This document shows, in pieces, positions 5,856-39,163 of a stretch of DNA of 39,163 nucleotides; the first letter of the stretch is position 1; the number at the start of each line of letters is the position of its first letter. The notes under the pieces were generated by a model. The model had not been told where the DNA came from. It worked only from the letters and a program-made list of their open reading frames with translations, and did not search any database. A program made the position numbers and the translations under genes. This DNA is from an uncultured Verrucomicrobiales bacterium (GTDB taxonomy: Bacteria; Verrucomicrobiota; Verrucomicrobiia; Verrucomicrobiales; Akkermansiaceae): the NCBI GenBank assembly GCA_937969495.1, contig CALBVY010000043.1, positions 1 through 39,163 of the forward strand, read 5' to 3'.

Positions 5856-6302
5856 GTGGACCTTAAGGAAATTCGTAAAATCGTCGAGCTCATGAACGAG
5901 CATGAACTCTCATATTTCCACCTCGAAGAGGAGGGCATCAATCTCAAGATGAAAAAGGGTGCTGATATCGTGCAAGTAGCTCAAGCCGCCATGCCTACCG
6001 CTGCTACCGCTGCTGCGCCTGCTACTACTCCCCCTGTGGCTGCAGATACGACGGAAGCGGCCACTCCAGGCAATGAGATCCCAGCACCGATGGTAGGAAC
6101 GTTCTACGCCTCTCCATCACCAGATTCTCCCGCTTTTGTCAGTGTAGGAGACACCATTAGCGTAGGGCAGACACTCTGTATCATTGAGGCGATGAAGGTG
6201 ATGAATGAAATCAAATCTGAAGTAGCCGGTACGGTAACCGCCATTGTCGCCACAGACGGCGAGGCCGTACAGTTTGGCGATGGCCTGTTCCGCGTTCAGT
6301 AG
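5856..6302 (+). CDS. accB: Acetyl-CoA carboxylase biotin carboxyl carrier protein
   Basis: 148 residues, the usual size. It carries biotin between the carboxylase and transferase half-reactions that make malonyl-CoA for fatty acid synthesis. The N-terminal helix (MDLKEIRKIVELM) is typical of AccB. An Ala/Pro/Thr-rich linker spans about residues 42-75, followed by the biotinyl domain with the EAMKVMNEI motif, in which Lys114 is the expected biotinylation site. It starts at GTG (5856). accC follows 47 bp downstream, so the usual accBC operon is intact. accA and accD are not in the window. Confidence 0.96.
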   Translation: MDLKEIRKIVELMNEHELSYFHLEEEGINLKMKKGADIVQVAQAAMPTAATAAAPATTPPVAADTTEAATPGNEIPAPMVGTFYASPSPDSPAFVSVGDTISVGQTLCIIEAMKVMNEIKSEVAGTVTAIVATDGEAVQFGDGLFRVQ

Positions 6303-6349
6303 ATGGCGCTCCTACATTCTGCGTCAACCGCCTTCACTTTTTCTTTCCC

Positions 6350-7705
6350 ATGTTTAACAAAGTACTTGTCGCCAACCGGGGGGAGATTGCCCTTCGTATC
6401 ATCCGCGCTTGCCGTGAGCTAGGTGTAACATCCGTTGCTGTTTACTCAGAGGCAGATGTAGATTCCATGCATGTGCAGCTTGCGGATGAATCCGTCTGTA
6501 TCGGCCCTGGTCCCAGTAAAGATAGCTACCTCAAGCCAGACCGTATCATCGCCGCAGCCGAGATAACAGACGCTGATGCTATCCACCCTGGCTATGGCTT
6601 TCTCTCTGAGAATGCACGTTTTGTAGAAATTTGCGATAGCTGTAATATCAAGTTTATTGGGCCTTCTGCTAAGGTTATTCGCCGCATGGGTGATAAGAAT
6701 ACCGCCCGTGCCACTGCTGTAGAATATGGTGTTCCCATCACACCTGGCTCAGACGGAATCCTTGAATCTGCTGAACATGGCTTAAAGCTGGCAAAAGAAA
6801 TGGGATTCCCTGTGATGATTAAAGCCACCGCTGGTGGTGGCGGCCGCGGTATGCGTCCATGTTTTGATGAAACAGAATTTACCTCCCTCTATGATGCTGC
6901 CAGTAAAGAGGCGATTGCCTGTTTTGGTAACGGTGACTGCTACCTCGAGAAACTAGTGCTTAAGCCGCACCACGTTGAGATGCAAATCATCGCTGATACC
7001 CACGGGAACTTCATTCAGCTAGGTGAACGTGATTGCTCCATGCAACGCCGAAACCAAAAGATCATCGAGGAGTGCCCGTCTCCCCTCATTTCTGAAAAAA
7101 TGCGCCAAGAGATGGCCACCGCCTCCGTTAATCTCATCAAATCTATCGGTTACGAAAACGCCGGCACCATCGAGTACCTCGTGGATGAAAAAGCAGAAAA
7201 CTTCTACTTCATGGAAATGAACACTCGGATCCAGGTAGAACATCCAGTGACCGAAGAAGTGATGGGCTGTGAGCTCATTAAAGAACAAATTCGCGTAGCC
7301 TGTGGTGAACCACTTTCTAAACACGTACTGGACGTAAATCCACGTGGTCACTCTATTGAATGCCGTATTAACGCGGAAGACCCATATAATAATTTCTGCC
7401 CTAGCCCAGGGAAAATCACTCTCTGGTACACCCCGGGCGGTAAGGGTGTGCGCTTAGATACCCACGTTTATTCAGGCTACTCCGTACCGCCACACTATGA
7501 CTCCATGATCGCCAAGCTCATCGTCACTGGCTCCTCACGTGAGATTGCCATCGCCAGAATGAAGCGCGCCCTGTCTGAATTTAAAATCGAAGGTATTAAA
7601 ACAACTATTCCCTTCCAACAGGAAATCATCGATCACCCAGACTTTATCACTGGCAACTACGGTATTGAGTGGGTAGGCGACTACATGAAGGAAAAAGGGT
7701 ATTAG
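6350..7705 (+). CDS. accC: Acetyl-CoA carboxylase biotin carboxylase subunit
   Basis: 451 residues, full length. It catalyses ATP-dependent carboxylation of biotin on AccB. The N-terminal domain starts FNKVLVANRGEIALRIIRAC. The ATP-grasp glycine loop is at residues 161-169 (AGGGGRGMR). The catalytic segment MEMNTRIQVEHPVTEE holds Glu289, Asn291 and Arg293, equivalent to the active-site residues of the Escherichia coli enzyme. The C-terminal biotin carboxylase domain is complete. There is no Shine-Dalgarno before the ATG. It is the second gene of the accBC pair and converges with the glycosylase gene, leaving only 10 bp between stop codons. Confidence 0.97.
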   Translation: MFNKVLVANRGEIALRIIRACRELGVTSVAVYSEADVDSMHVQLADESVCIGPGPSKDSYLKPDRIIAAAEITDADAIHPGYGFLSENARFVEICDSCNIKFIGPSAKVIRRMGDKNTARATAVEYGVPITPGSDGILESAEHGLKLAKEMGFPVMIKATAGGGGRGMRPCFDETEFTSLYDAASKEAIACFGNGDCYLEKLVLKPHHVEMQIIADTHGNFIQLGERDCSMQRRNQKIIEECPSPLISEKMRQEMATASVNLIKSIGYENAGTIEYLVDEKAENFYFMEMNTRIQVEHPVTEEVMGCELIKEQIRVACGEPLSKHVLDVNPRGHSIECRINAEDPYNNFCPSPGKITLWYTPGGKGVRLDTHVYSGYSVPPHYDSMIAKLIVTGSSREIAIARMKRALSEFKIEGIKTTIPFQQEIIDHPDFITGNYGIEWVGDYMKEKGY

Positions 7706-31310: not shown

Positions 31311-32597
31311 CTAGGTCTGAAACTGCGCAATTCGCCCCGCAATACTGGCAGGCACTACAGCCTCAAGAATAACGTCATTACCATCATACTCTGTGCTGAG
31401 AACTTTTGCCTCACGGTGCAGCATACCAGGTATATCACCCCGGCTTTGCGGAATACGATAAGTCAGGGTCTGAACACGGTCGGCGAGCATCTCAGAACAT
31501 TTTTCTAGAAGCGCATTCATACCATCTCCGGTCATTGCACTTACTGAGATTGTATTTGGAAATGAGACCTCTAGCCCAGCTAGTTTGATCGGATCATTCA
31601 GCACATCGATTTTATTAAGCACCGTAATAATAGGTTTATCCCCTGCTCCAAGCTCTTCGAGAACTGCCATCGTGGTTTGATAGAATTTTTCTACTTCGGG
31701 CGATGAGGCATCTAACACATGGATGATAAAGTCAGCGAGCACAGATTCTTCCAATGTTGCCTTAAATGCCTCCACCAGCCTATGAGGAAGATTTCGGATA
31801 AACCCTACCGTGTCCGTGAGTAGTAGCGGTTGGCCATCGGGTAACTCGATCGCCCGAGTGGTGGTATCTAGAGTAGCAAAGAGCATATCCTTTGCCATTA
31901 CCTCTGCTTCAGAAAGTCTGTTGAGGAGGGTGGATTTGCCTGCGTTGGTGTAGCCAGCGATTGCTGCGCAAGGCGTGCCCATTTTCTCTCTCTCTTTGCG
32001 TCGGGTATTACGTTGTTTACGGACTTCTGCCAGCTCACGCTTGCATTGATCAATCCGTGTTCGAGCAAGACGCCGATCGACTTCGATCTGTTGTTCACCC
32101 ATACCTCGAGATGCACCACCGCCCCCTTGTCCACCCCCACCTTCGCGATCCAAGTGCCCCCACATCCGTGTTAACCGTGGTAGAGAATATTGCATCCGCG
32201 CGAGATCCACCTGGAGCCTTGCTTCACGCGTTTGTGCTCGTTTTGAAAAAATATCCAGAATGACCTCCTCCCGATCAATCACACACATATCAGCCAGTTC
32301 TTCCCAGTTTCTCTGCTGAGATGGTAAAAACATATTGTCGAACACGATGCAGTCACACTCGTGAGCTCTCGCTAGCTGGACCATCTCTTCTGCTTTGCCT
32401 GTTCCACAAAGATATTTTTTGTGCAGTGATCGGGTAAAAACAAGCACTGATTCCACGACGCCAATACCAAGCGTGTTCACCAGTTCCCCCAGCTCATTGA
32501 GTAATGATGCTTCTTCTTCTTCCTCTCGTCTGTCGTGGTAAATACGCACTAGCAAAGCGCGCTCTACCATTTCAGGTTTATCTCTGACCTCGAACAT
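31311..32597 (-). CDS. hflX: GTPase HflX
   Basis: 428 residues. A ribosome-associated GTPase that helps split or rescue stalled ribosomes. The N-terminal HflX domain (VFTRSLHKKYLCGTGKAEEM and VIDREEVILDIFSKRAQT) precedes the glycine-rich linker GGGGQGGGG and a coiled-coil helix. The GTPase core has the P-loop GYTNAGKSTLLNRLSE, switch region ATLDTTTRAI, DTVGFIRNLPHRLVEAFKAT and NKID. A C-terminal domain is present. GGGAGA touches the start codon but is too close to act as a standard ribosome binding site. hfq is not adjacent. Divergent from mnmG across the parS-containing gap. Confidence 0.96.
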   Translation of the reverse strand: MFEVRDKPEMVERALLVRIYHDRREEEEEASLLNELGELVNTLGIGVVESVLVFTRSLHKKYLCGTGKAEEMVQLARAHECDCIVFDNMFLPSQQRNWEELADMCVIDREEVILDIFSKRAQTREARLQVDLARMQYSLPRLTRMWGHLDREGGGGQGGGGASRGMGEQQIEVDRRLARTRIDQCKRELAEVRKQRNTRRKEREKMGTPCAAIAGYTNAGKSTLLNRLSEAEVMAKDMLFATLDTTTRAIELPDGQPLLLTDTVGFIRNLPHRLVEAFKATLEESVLADFIIHVLDASSPEVEKFYQTTMAVLEELGAGDKPIITVLNKIDVLNDPIKLAGLEVSFPNTISVSAMTGDGMNALLEKCSEMLADRVQTLTYRIPQSRGDIPGMLHREAKVLSTEYDGNDVILEAVVPASIAGRIAQFQT

Positions 32598-35640: not shown

Positions 35641-37503
35641 TTAAAGTTCATCCAAGGGACTCCTCACCACGTCACCTGGTCGGTTTAACACGTGTGTATA
35701 AATCATCGTCGTACTAACATCCGCATGACCTAACAATTCTTGAACTGTTCTAATATCTTGACCGCGCTGTAGCAGATGTGTGGCAAAAGAATGCCTTAAA
35801 GTATGGCAGCTGACACGTTTAATGATACCCGCCTTTGCCACCGCAGTCTTCACTGCTCGTTGCACCACCGTTTCGCCTAGATGATGTCTCCTAACAACTC
35901 CAGATTTTGGATCTTGAGAAAGTTTATCACTGGGGAATAGCCACATCCATGCCAGAGATCTAGCAGCATAAGGCGCTTTAATAGCCATTGCATCAGGCAT
36001 CCACACACCCGCTGTTCCAGACTTGGTATCCGCTTCTTGAATTTCACGCACCTTATCAATCTGCGCTTTTAATGCATCCACAATCGAATGGGGCAGGGGA
36101 GTATGCCGAGATTTCCCCCCCTTACCTCGCATCACCATCAAATAGCCGTTTTCAAAATCCACATCTTTTACCCTCAGCCGCATACACTCCATTAATCTAA
36201 GTCCCGCGCCATACATCAGCTTTGCCATCAGTAAGGAAATGCCATGCATCTCACCGAACAGCTTTGCTACCTCACCCTCCGTCATCACTACAGGTAAAGA
36301 CTTTCTACTAGATCCTTTACAGAAATTACCCAAAGTAAAATCTTCTATCAGAAACACAGATTTATAGAGAAATGACAATGCATTTACTGCTTGCTTCTGC
36401 GTATTCACCCCCACTCTACGCTCCATCGCTAAATAAGTTAGAAATCGCGTTGCCGCATCAACATCTGGTTTCCCCTCTAAGCCTTCTGCCTTATACCAAC
36501 GAAAAAAATCGACCGCCCAGTTTTTATAAGTTTTTTCAGTGCGTAATGCATATCGTCGCACACGTAATTTTATCACCAGCTGCTCAATCCACTTTACCGC
36601 ATCACCCTCCACACCAGCCTGAGTCACAAGCTTCTCCCTCTGCTCACTAGATAATTCCCGAACCAGATCTTCATGCAATGGCTCAAAGTCATCAATTCTT
36701 GCATAAATCATCTGCCACCGCATCGTTACAGCCCATGGACTCTTTAAAATATCCCGATGTGCCCAGCAAACTGCCTGCACTGCTTGCTTGATCTGCCAAG
36801 GCTCCATCACTTTCCCCATAAAATCCACCCAGCGCATTAACCTCTCATCGCCACTAAGCTCAGCCCAACAGACTGTTGCCCGCAACTGTGCCTGCTTTTG
36901 TAAGACATACTCCACCGTCCCCTCAACACCACGAGCATCGGCTTGAGCCGCATTTTTCTTACCTCCATGAGATGGAGAAAATTCTGCCTGATTTCGATAA
37001 AAATCTGCCCATCTCTCCAGATGTCTTCCATAGTAAACAAACGATGCTTGCGGAATCTTTCTCTTAGCCAGTAAAACCAAATAATCTTTCCAGAATACAC
37101 TGCCACTCAAAGCCTGGGACAAACCCTCACAACCTTCCGAACTAACATAAGCTGAACCACCTACCTTATTAAAATTAGCTTCATCACCATCCTCAACTTC
37201 CAATAAACGGCTAGGTTCCTGACAACTTAAGCAATACGCATAAAAATCTGCAAACCTCTCCGCCATTTCACTCACCCCAGCTATTGACTTTGCTAAAATC
37301 CACCGCTCAATATCATCAACTAAACTTGGCACCTCTATCACTTTCACTAATCCCAAACTCTCAAATTTCTCTAATCTTTCGAATTGATCACACCCAGATA
37401 AGCGGCCAACACCCTCCACCAATCCAGTATCACTCCTACCAGGCACCGACGATAAGTAATCAAAAGAACACATGTTCATAAGAGTATTTACAAGCTCCCT
37501 CAC
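35641..37503 (-). CDS. intI: Integron integrase (tyrosine recombinase) with long N-terminal extension
   Basis: 620 residues from a GTG start with AGGG seven bases upstream. Residues about 305-620 are an IntI-type recombinase: core-binding arm (YALRTEKTYKNWAVDFFRWY), catalytic Arg436 (YGAGLRLMECMRLRVKDVDF), His567-x-x-Arg570 (CHTLRHSF), His593 and nucleophile Tyr602 (HADVSTTMIYTH). The integron-specific insert is present at about 490-525 (EADTKSGTAGVWMPDAM...WLFPS), as is the GDVVRSPLDEL ending typical of IntI. Ordinary IntI is about 320-340 residues. Here roughly 300 residues precede it, including FWKDYLVLLAKRKIPQASFV, which resembles another SAM-like core-binding unit. It catalyses attI x attC and attC x attC recombination. 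Cassettes lie upstream of its start, the canonical divergent arrangement. Confidence 0.92.
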   Translation of the reverse strand: MRELVNTLMNMCSFDYLSSVPGRSDTGLVEGVGRLSGCDQFERLEKFESLGLVKVIEVPSLVDDIERWILAKSIAGVSEMAERFADFYAYCLSCQEPSRLLEVEDGDEANFNKVGGSAYVSSEGCEGLSQALSGSVFWKDYLVLLAKRKIPQASFVYYGRHLERWADFYRNQAEFSPSHGGKKNAAQADARGVEGTVEYVLQKQAQLRATVCWAELSGDERLMRWVDFMGKVMEPWQIKQAVQAVCWAHRDILKSPWAVTMRWQMIYARIDDFEPLHEDLVRELSSEQREKLVTQAGVEGDAVKWIEQLVIKLRVRRYALRTEKTYKNWAVDFFRWYKAEGLEGKPDVDAATRFLTYLAMERRVGVNTQKQAVNALSFLYKSVFLIEDFTLGNFCKGSSRKSLPVVMTEGEVAKLFGEMHGISLLMAKLMYGAGLRLMECMRLRVKDVDFENGYLMVMRGKGGKSRHTPLPHSIVDALKAQIDKVREIQEADTKSGTAGVWMPDAMAIKAPYAARSLAWMWLFPSDKLSQDPKSGVVRRHHLGETVVQRAVKTAVAKAGIIKRVSCHTLRHSFATHLLQRGQDIRTVQELLGHADVSTTMIYTHVLNRPGDVVRSPLDEL

Positions 37504-37791
37504 GTCAATACCCTATTTAGTAATAACTAATTTTTTTTATGAATGAAGAAATAATGCAGGCAGCAGAGCTACACGATTCACTCGATAATATCGAGTAGTC
37601 ATGGGCTAAAGTGTATGGATTGAGATCGATGGTTTATTTTGCTATTCAAGTTTTGTAAGCGTAGAGATAACTGTATTTCTCAAAAACTACCGACATAACT
37701 CCTTTGCCGAATAAAACGCCATATCTAATTGATAACTATCTTATAATGAAAGACATATTCACCACGTCACCAGCCGAAAGATTGTCTGTAT
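37504..37791. other. Probable attI/integrase promoter region
   Basis: 288 bp between the integrase start and the first attC, where attI and the integrase and cassette promoters are expected. I cannot identify attI by sequence, as it is not conserved between integrons. No real gene is found. Two very short frames preceded by Shine-Dalgarno-like bases are not supported. A perfect 8-bp inverted repeat lies at 37580-37596. Confidence 0.4.
37580..37596. promoter_or_regulatory. 17-bp operator-like palindrome upstream of intI
   Basis: ACTCGATA and TATCGAGT are perfect inverted arms around a single central base (37588), 77 bp upstream of the integrase start. The spacing is too tight for an RNA hairpin and suggests binding of a dimeric regulator. 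SOS control of intI by LexA is known in some bacteria. This sequence does not match the proteobacterial CTGT-N8-ACAG box, so the regulator is unknown. Confidence 0.45.
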
Positions 37792-37909
37792 ATAGAACGT
37801 ATAGATCAACCGCCGCCTGTAAAACAGTCATAGGCCGAGCACGGTTTTTACCTCTCAAAGGTTTCCGTCTACAAGACGAGTAACTGTCGGATGCAGCGTC
37901 TTGTTCGAT
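37792..37909 (-). repeat. attC site 1 (118 bp), minus orientation
   Basis: Read on the minus strand it starts with R''-like ATCGAAC, 9 bp after the toxin gene stop, followed by AAGACGCTGCATCCGAC (L''), and ends GGCGGTTGATCTATAC (L') and GTTCTAT (R'-like). The outer boxes carry the AAC...GTT recombination core. It is the same length as attC site 2 and identical at 96 of 118 positions without gaps, including the central spacer. Its orientation is opposite to site 2. The outer ends are partly complementary, as needed for folding of the recombining strand. It ends the toxin-antitoxin cassette. Confidence 0.82.
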
Positions 37910-37917
37910 TTCTTTTT

Positions 37918-38175
37918 TCAATAATGATACCTTAGTTGTGCCAGTTGGATAATATCTCCACTGATTCTATAAACCAACCGATGCTCGTCGGTAATACGTC
38001 TAGACCAGAATCCTGAAAATGCGTGCTTCAATGGCTCAGGCTTTCCAATTCCTTGATAAGGGTCATCACGGCTGATGTCGACTAACAGCGCATTGATCTT
38101 TTTTATTACTTTGCGGTCATATTGCTGCCAATGTGTATAATCCTCCCCAGCTCTATCGGAGAACTGAATATTCAT
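37918..38175 (-). CDS. yoeB: YoeB/Txe-family mRNA interferase toxin
   Basis: 85 residues, typical size. YoeB cleaves mRNA in the ribosomal A site. The conserved catalytic set is present: Glu47 (KPEPLKH), Arg66 (TDEHRLVY) and the C-terminal His84-Tyr85 (LRYHY), matching Glu46, Arg65, His83 and Tyr84 in E. coli YoeB. Its start codon overlaps the antitoxin stop (ATGA), giving translational coupling. It is part of a gene cassette ending in attC site 1. In integrons such cassettes stabilise the array by post-segregational killing (inference from studied systems). Confidence 0.95.
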   Translation of the reverse strand: MNIQFSDRAGEDYTHWQQYDRKVIKKINALLVDISRDDPYQGIGKPEPLKHAFSGFWSRRITDEHRLVYRISGDIIQLAQLRYHY

Positions 38176-38429
38176 GACAATTCATCCAAACTTTTAACCA
38201 CTCCTTGCCCCTTCTCGAGCTGTGAAATCCCTTCGGAAAGCCGCTGTGCATTCTTGGGTGATCTCAGGAGGTATGCTGTCTCCTGAAGAGATTCATAATC
38301 TTCTAGAGAAACCATAACCACAGCCTGGTTCCGTTTGCGCGTGATAATCACTGGATCATGATCATCGCAAACTAAATTCATGGTGGCGGCAAGGTTCTCT
38401 CTCGCTGCTGAATAGGTGATCGCTTTCAT
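38172..38429 (-). CDS. yefM: YefM/Phd-family antitoxin
   Basis: 85 residues. The N-terminal dimerisation and DNA-binding fold (MKAITYSAARENLAATMNLV, then PVIITRKRNQAVVMVSLEDY) is that of YefM/Phd antitoxins. The C-terminal 30 residues form the flexible part that covers the toxin active site. It precedes yoeB with a four-base overlap, the usual antitoxin-first order. YefM normally represses its own promoter. The gene is on the minus strand and the short cassette leader upstream is AT-rich, leaving room for its own promoter. Known family; identity is secure, partner inferred from adjacency. Confidence 0.93.
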   Translation of the reverse strand: MKAITYSAARENLAATMNLVCDDHDPVIITRKRNQAVVMVSLEDYESLQETAYLLRSPKNAQRLSEGISQLEKGQGVVKSLDELS

Positions 38430-38462
38430 ATGGACAGGATAGCGTACAATTTAGGAGTGTCT

Positions 38463-38575
38463 ATTCTTATTCTTATCGAACATACACATTGATTAATCTC
38501 TACAATAGACAATCAGTCGTCTATCCCATAAACTACAACCAGTTATCCATTTAACTGTTCGGTAATAATAAGAAT
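38463..38575. repeat. 20-bp inverted repeat at the junction of two head-to-head cassettes
   Basis: Bases 38463-38482 and 38556-38575 are inverted copies with two mismatches, separated by 73 bp. Each arm contains a CGAAC/GTTCG core like the outer boxes of the two attC sites: ATCGAAC at 38475-38481 and GTTCGGT at 38557-38563. The right arm leads directly to the start codon of the zinc-ribbon gene, the left one to the antitoxin gene on the other strand. So both cassettes begin with nearly the same leader. The sequence between the boxes, 38482-38556, could be a degenerate attC, but lacks the GCGCTGCATCCGAC block of the other two. Confidence 0.7.
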
Positions 38576-38577
38576 CC

Positions 38578-38913
38578 ATGGCTGAAACGTATCATTGTTG
38601 GAGGTGTAAAATGCCTATTCCGATGCTCACAGATGAGGAATGGGAAGTTATAAGGCCGCTATTATGGGCAGACACAAAGAAGATTAAATCATATAGAGAG
38701 GAATCGGGTGTGGGTCTGAGGGAGGCTTTAGATACCTTGCGATTTCGGGCGTGTGAGAAGTATTACGAAATAACAGGTTTTCGGGAGACTAACCCTAATG
38801 CTTTGTGGCATCATTACCTTTCGCTCTATGGCCCAGAATGTATCAATTGTGGTCACTTGCTAAGAACACCCAAAGCATCATATTGTGCTAATTGCGGAGC
38901 CTCTAAGAATTAG
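38578..38913 (+). CDS. Cassette-encoded zinc-ribbon hypothetical protein
   Basis: 111 residues. The N-terminus begins with a CxxC pair (HCWRC, Cys7 and Cys10) before MPIPMLTDEEWEVIRPLL. The middle is helical. The C-terminus carries two further CxxC pairs (CINCGHLL and CANCGA), a zinc-ribbon layout. No enzyme motif is seen. The ATG is 15 bp after the putative recombination box, and the stop is immediately followed by the R''-like box of attC site 2, so the gene fills its cassette exactly. Proteins with this pattern occur among integron cassettes of unknown function (family knowledge, not checked). No ribosome binding site is evident. Confidence 0.75.
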   Translation: MAETYHCWRCKMPIPMLTDEEWEVIRPLLWADTKKIKSYREESGVGLREALDTLRFRACEKYYEITGFRETNPNALWHHYLSLYGPECINCGHLLRTPKASYCANCGASKN

Positions 38914-39031
38914 ACCGAACAAGGCGCTGCATCCGACCGTTAACCGTCTCTGAGTCGGAAACCATTGAGAGATAAAAACCTTGCTCGGTTTGCGTCTGTT
39001 TTACACGCGGCGGTTGAGCTTTACGTTCGAC
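38914..39031 (+). repeat. attC site 2 (118 bp), plus orientation
   Basis: It starts ACCGAAC (R''-like) directly after the gene stop codon, then AAGGCGCTGCATCCGACC (L''), and ends GCGGCGGTTGAGCTTTAC (L') and GTTCGAC (R'-like). The L'' and L' parts are partly complementary. The AACAAGGCGCTGCATCCGAC...TGAGCTTTACGTT type is widespread in environmental gene cassettes (from memory). It aligns with attC site 1 over the whole 118 bp at 81% identity. It ends the zinc-ribbon cassette in the direction canonical for an integrase on the opposite strand. Confidence 0.86.
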
Positions 39032-39163
39032 TATGAAGACATGCATTGGATTGGATCGCTAGCTTTGGCAGAGTTGATTATGTGTTAGTTTTCCGTAGGT
39101 GAAGGGTTTTGATCACGAAGTTCCAGCTTCAACATAAATTATAGCTTGAATCTTTGCAGGAGA
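39032..39163 (+). other. Start of a further cassette, cut off by the window edge
   Basis: After the attC recombination box there is no complete gene. A frame from the first ATG closes after nine codons. The last seven bases are AGGAGA preceded by GC, a strong Shine-Dalgarno-like sequence. The next cassette gene would therefore start just beyond the right edge on the plus strand. Confidence 0.4.

Follow-up and report, generated by a model that had tools for sequence, protein, structure and literature searches.

A reversed YefM-YoeB cassette between intI and attI of a verrucomicrobial integron: probable integrase-mediated insertion at a secondary site

Introduction

In an integrated gene cassette, a G immediately precedes the 5' end, and this end is the complement of the R'' box in the cassette's own attC site. 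Under the bottom-strand rule of attC recombination, the orientation of a cassette is fixed with respect to its target site and not to the chromosome, and the triplet rule for secondary (attG) sites is GWT. Secondary-site integration of cassettes by attC x attG recombination has reportedly been described by Loot et al. in 2024. The account of this reaction used here is taken from two citing papers (PMC12901181; PMC12444791), the former of which describes attG integration. Bottom-strand recombination cuts at the R' box, while use of the top strand shifts the crossover to R'' (PMC2727003); top-strand use at attI would reverse a cassette (PMC5454043). Off-target integrase activity at GTT sites has also been described (PMC10127599), and lone or clustered attC sites without an integrase are known as SALIN and CALIN, respectively (PMC12690207).

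The locus analyzed here lies in a window of 39163 bp that represents one entire contig (C43) of a 2.47-Mb draft genome of 98 contigs. As in attC x attG integration, a single cassette is involved, recombination is at the R' box, and a G|TT outside attI is used (the bar marks the crossover). In the window, however, the site belongs to the integron platform itself: it falls in the gap between intI and attI, on the other strand from attI. The integrase comes from a lineage that has received little study, and the case is read from sequence. While lone cassettes elsewhere in the genome, on contigs C51 and C37, look like SALIN, the reversed cassette adjoins intI and would count within a complete integron. 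Like toxin-antitoxin (TA) cassettes of the sedentary chromosomal Vibrio cholerae superintegron (PMC11023631), it carries a type II TA pair and a probable promoter of its own; unlike these, it lies outside the array and is reversed as a whole, attC included. Opposed GTT sites are shared with integrase-mediated off-target inversions (PMC10127599), but those flip a segment, whereas the junctions and attI orientation in the window indicate direct insertion. A search of the open-licence literature for inverted cassettes or reverse-orientation attC sites yielded no comparable case.

Results

A sequence-only reading of the window had proposed two opposed attC sites, each following the stop of its own gene. 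Comparison of the reverse complement of attC 1 with attC 2 (Table 1) bore this out, with 96 of 118 positions identical in an ungapped alignment and only 32 of 118 in direct orientation. The runner-up 118-mer across the whole window had 51 identical positions, and 2000 shuffles gave a mean of 29.6 and a maximum of 46. An attC covariance model, built from 15 attC sites of the genus that include both window sites as seeds, matched both at full length and in opposite orientations, with scores of 101.8 bits for attC 1 and 120.8 bits for attC 2. The sites start 8 bp past yoeB (stop end at 37918, -) and 0 bp past the zinc-ribbon ORF (stop end at 38913, +). In the YefM-YoeB cassette, R'' (ATCGAAC, 37909-37903) is complementary to the 5' end GTTCGAT (-; + coordinates 38475-38481), with a crossover G|TTCGAT at 38481|38480. 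In the zinc-ribbon cassette, R'' (ACCGAAC, 38914-38920) is complementary to the 5' end GTTCGGT (38557-38563), with a crossover G|TTCGGT at 38557|38558. Since both pairs are perfect (7/7), the region contains two complete cassettes, head to head, with a gap of 77 bp (38481-38557) between them. The TA cassette thus runs backwards relative to the zinc-ribbon cassette and the array, as proposed, and also relative to intI and attI.

Table 1. Features of the integron platform in the window, with coordinates in the 39163-bp contig.
Feature	Position	Strand	Remarks
intI, integron integrase, 610 aa	35641..37473	-	from ATG 37473; TIGR02249, Pfam phage integrase
Candidate intI promoter	37481..37508	-	TTGACG, 16 nt, TACTCT; retained beside intI
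attC 1	37792..37909	-	R'' ATCGAAC, R' GTTCTAT; R' TTCTAT contributed by target
YefM-YoeB cassette, complete, reversed, 683 bp	37798..38480	-	7/7 complementarity of 5' end and R''; G|TT at both junctions
yoeB, toxin gene, 85 aa	37918..38175	-	PF06769, E 2e-34; TIGR02116
yefM, antitoxin gene, 85 aa	38172..38429	-	PF02604, E 1e-24
Promoter-like site within cassette, ahead of yefM	38436..38463	-	scan match TAGACA-16-TATCCT
attI (putative)	38505..38557	+	crossover G 38557 | TT; element shared with G013 and G011
First array cassette, zinc-ribbon-like protein, normal orientation	38558..39025	+	5' end GTTCGGT complements R'' ACCGAAC, 7/7
Zinc-ribbon-like ORF, 111 aa	38578-38913	+	two CxxC pairs in C-terminus
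attC 2	38914..39031	+	120.8 bits, attC covariance model

The zinc-ribbon-like protein had no match in Pfam or NCBIfam. The L'' arm carries an extra base that, on the gene strand, is G in most cases and T or A in some, as aligned, unlike the C typical of class 1 cassettes; the polarity of the attC arms was otherwise normal, as read from attC 2 and the attC alignment. The cassette cut by the window end (39026-39163) and a cassette at the end of contig C83 (1-98 of the stretch read, -) have near-identical starts (TTCGACTATGAAGACATGCATTG...), and, judged by these starts, a related cassette is present at both places.

The integrase belongs to the integron subfamily, as expected of a complete integron: its TIGR02249 match of 381 bits (cut-off 265) covers residues 307-620 of the 620-aa reading obtained from an alternative upstream GTG (37503). 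The ATG start was aligned by eye with those of G013 and G011, two genomes from the same genus. Ahead of the canonical integrase domain, IntI has about 300 additional N-terminal residues (36560-37473, -); this extension had no Pfam match, and a long N-terminal part is also present in the IntI orthologues of G013, where it has QEAGC repeats, and G011. The candidate intI promoter, read by eye, has equal spacing in G013 (TTGACT..TACTCT) and G011 (TTGACT..TATTCT); a promoter scan recovered the G011 copy, and the window copy was absent from the scan list. An array promoter, Pc, was not located by promoter scanning. Contig C67 (3-875, +) encodes another integron integrase, which is truncated by the contig edge and shares 45% identity with the window IntI.

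G013 and G011 carry orthologous integrons, with IntI proteins 76 and 75% identical to that of the window, respectively. In both, a conserved element that includes GTCGTCTATCCCATNAACTACG and AGTCGTCCATTTAACTG|TT lies immediately before the first cassette. Its counterpart in the window ends exactly at the crossover of the zinc-ribbon cassette, and a pattern derived from the three sequences (at most 3 mismatches) matched only these three among 145 family genomes. On this comparison, the element is taken to be attI. Because attI ends at its crossover, the zinc-ribbon cassette is the ordinary first cassette: as in a complete integron, attI lies directly before it, and the 683-bp reversed cassette parts attI from intI. 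The TA cassette is outside the array and sits in the intI-attI spacer. The orientation of attI relative to intI was identical in the window, G013, and G011, and no cassette was found between intI and the array in G011, G013, or the more distant G012. In G029 and G032, an uncommon co-directional layout was observed, in which the attC sites follow intI at its 3' end and share its direction.

Which of the two attC sites is the exception had been left for checking. Of the array, the window contig includes no more than cassette 1 and the first part of cassette 2, and orientations on C83 and in sister genomes agree: on C83, three close and two weaker attC sites all have one orientation, and among the 150 attC sites listed in four sister genomes, checked by eye, there were 0 contigs of mixed orientation. 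With the attC 2 cassette adjoining attI and no mixed contigs among the listed sister sites, attC 1 is the exception. Two sisters have very large attC collections (at least 150 sites in G012 and at least 75 in G013).

The junctions of the reversed cassette can be compared with those predicted by the different routes of insertion. Behind yoeB, attC 1 is intact, and the cassette begins with the R' half at its 5' end, which places the cut at R'; therefore, the usual attC strand was used, with a target on the other strand. Read on the minus strand, this target is ...AATCAATGTGTATG|TTCTATATACAGAC..., a G|TT triplet. The sequence GTATG|TTCTATATAC, at 76 bp from the crossover of attI, belongs to neither attI nor attC and has the short GWT/GTT triplet of attG sites. 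The insert likewise has the characteristics of an attG-type event: a complete cassette, R'-box crossover at both ends, and a whole attC. Without the insert, the uninterrupted target is predicted to read ...TATAGAACATACACATTG....

These junctions make it likely that the YefM-YoeB unit was inserted by an integrase at an attG-like G|TT in the intI-attI spacer, via bottom-strand R'-box recombination. In this scenario, a genuine, once-mobile YefM-YoeB cassette would have folded its attC as a bottom strand and recombined at the R' box; the integron integrase would have inserted it at a secondary G|TT triplet instead of at attI or in the array; a target triplet on the strand opposite attI would have made the cassette point toward intI; and a poorly folding attC together with a weak site may since have kept it in place. 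Either of the genome's two integrases, that of the window or the one on C67, may have acted. The earlier suggestion that a local inversion or a recombination mode specific to the lineage must be invoked for the inverted cassette is not upheld, since R'-box junctions at an opposite-strand G|TT suffice; its description of a complete, reversed cassette with an exceptional attC 1 stands. As a counter-point, random breakpoints would give G|TT at both junctions in approximately 1 in 64 cases (our estimate; the target triplet is short).

An empty site was not found in any strain: the spacers of G011 and G013, which do not have the cassette, were too divergent to align, and alignment of the flanks with the cassette left out (window versus sisters) yielded no clean empty site. 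An IntI search of genome contigs for close strains returned only a distant Bacteroidetes match.

The reversed layout could also have arisen in two steps, if the cassette was inserted in direct orientation and subsequently flipped, either by homologous recombination at the attC repeats or by integrase action at opposed GTT sites. Integrase-mediated inversions between opposed GTT sites have been described (PMC10127599), and the region is flanked by inverted attC repeats that are 81% alike. However, inversion between the two attC sites would have flipped attI too, and attI has the orientation seen in both sisters; flipping back the cassette alone removes G|TT from its junctions; and the arms share no exact inverted match longer than 13 bp. 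We consider such a local inversion unlikely. The same 13-bp limit, together with longest exact matches of 17 bp for repeats touching the region within the contig and 27 bp to the other contigs of the genome that were compared, argues against an assembly error that joined non-adjacent pieces head to head, as does the coherence of cassette boundaries, attI, and R box pairs. Even for a draft genome of 98 contigs, with a contig that stops inside the next cassette and attC repeats that are prone to break assemblies, an artifact therefore appears very improbable.

Textbook accounts explain a reversed cassette by recombination of the wrong (top) attC strand at attI (PMC5454043). This route predicts a crossover at R'' and an attC body beyond the other end of the genes, whereas the observed crossover is at R' and an intact attC follows yoeB. 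The cassette should also touch the attI crossover, from which it is parted by 77 bp that comprise attI and flanking sequence. As the junctions contradict this route and predicted folding favors the bottom strand, it retains almost no probability. Finally, illegitimate recombination, or a DNA exchange that carried the cassette from end to end, would involve no integrase at all. The case for integrase action rests on the sequence of the junctions, but both ends match cassette recombination boundaries and G|TT, which leaves little room for such a route.

Mobility of the cassette was assessed by calculating the Boltzmann probability of the recombinogenic fold (after PMC5371416), using DNA parameters and a constrained ensemble. 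For integrated sites, predicted bottom-strand probabilities were 0.15-0.72 for attC 2 and three C83 sites (0.36 for attC 2 itself), versus 2e-4 for attC 1. When the R' box was taken from the excised circle, they were 0.33-0.77 for the other four sites versus 0.004 for attC 1, so that attC 1 is predicted to fold roughly 100-1000x less often than its neighbors. Unconstrained folding of attC 1 gave no recombinogenic hairpin on either strand. Folding of both strands, suggested earlier as a check of polarity, favored the bottom over the top strand in 5/5 sites under the first constraint; with a stricter seven-pair R box, this preference failed for two integrated sites and held for 5/5 circles. Cassettes flanked by attC sites with a pfold of about 1e-5 to 3e-3 showed low or undetected excision (PMC5371416). 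Compared with this range, the predicted values for attC 1 indicate poor mobility, and the YefM-YoeB cassette is probably a poorly mobile resident. Its poor folding may reflect an old insertion.

The best NCBIfam match of the antitoxin was PRK11409 (YefM), with a score under its cut-off. Homologues of the pair occur in G012, G002, and G008 in normal orientation, with attC directly after yoeB and YoeB proteins 82-85% identical. Relative to genus relatives, dN was 0.07-0.09 and dS was saturated; on this dN, the YefM-YoeB proteins are conserved. The attC types of the YefM-YoeB cassettes of the window, G012, G002, and G008 differ and, therefore, these genes apparently entered cassettes on more than one occasion. 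In the promoter scan of the window, the number of matches was not above that in shuffled sequences, and the site ahead of yefM is supported by conservation: TATCCTGTCCATATG, just ahead of yefM, is common to the window and all sister YefM-YoeB cassettes compared. A putative promoter of its own may thus express yefM-yoeB, in which case reversal need not silence the cassette; such a promoter, if present, would explain why reversal was tolerated.

Elsewhere in the genome, cassettes that stand alone were also found, bounded by G|TT on either side. One lies downstream of atpC on C51 (attC 6272-6398, -), and another, on C37 (attC 32324-32442, -, within C37:30824-33942), stops immediately ahead of a ydcF-like gene; both gene names are our reading of the translations. 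The C51 cassette (in C51:4772-7898; 5' end near 2010 of this stretch) encodes a putative lipoprotein and is far from any intI on the contig part read. Comparison of the region downstream of atpC with sister genomes yielded no clean empty site for it. The C37 target, CATTATACTG|TT, resembles the attI end, CATTTAACTG|TT. Two attC-like sites were detected close to the end of C70. The lone cassettes indicate that off-array insertion is not isolated in this genome.

Discussion

The reversed YefM-YoeB cassette is best explained as a natural example of known secondary-site integration and not as a new recombination mode. It is a modestly unusual, useful example of off-target insertion as already described. 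A selective reading would make the intI-attI spacer a favored target for reversed TA cassettes that drive their own expression. Upstream of intI and pointing the same way, such a cassette would feed transcription into intI or guard the platform from loss, and the position itself would have been selected; we regard this as a speculation with a slim chance of being correct.

With attI, both cassette boundaries, and the sister platforms legible in the sequence, this natural case allows a test of the orientation rule on its junctions. The locus also calls for caution in the annotation of integrons, as the first attC past intI does not always belong to cassette 1. It is the target site that determines orientation, and a target outside attI is enough to reverse a cassette. 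Together with the lone cassettes elsewhere in the genome, the locus suggests that off-array cassette integration occurs outside laboratory systems in this lineage.
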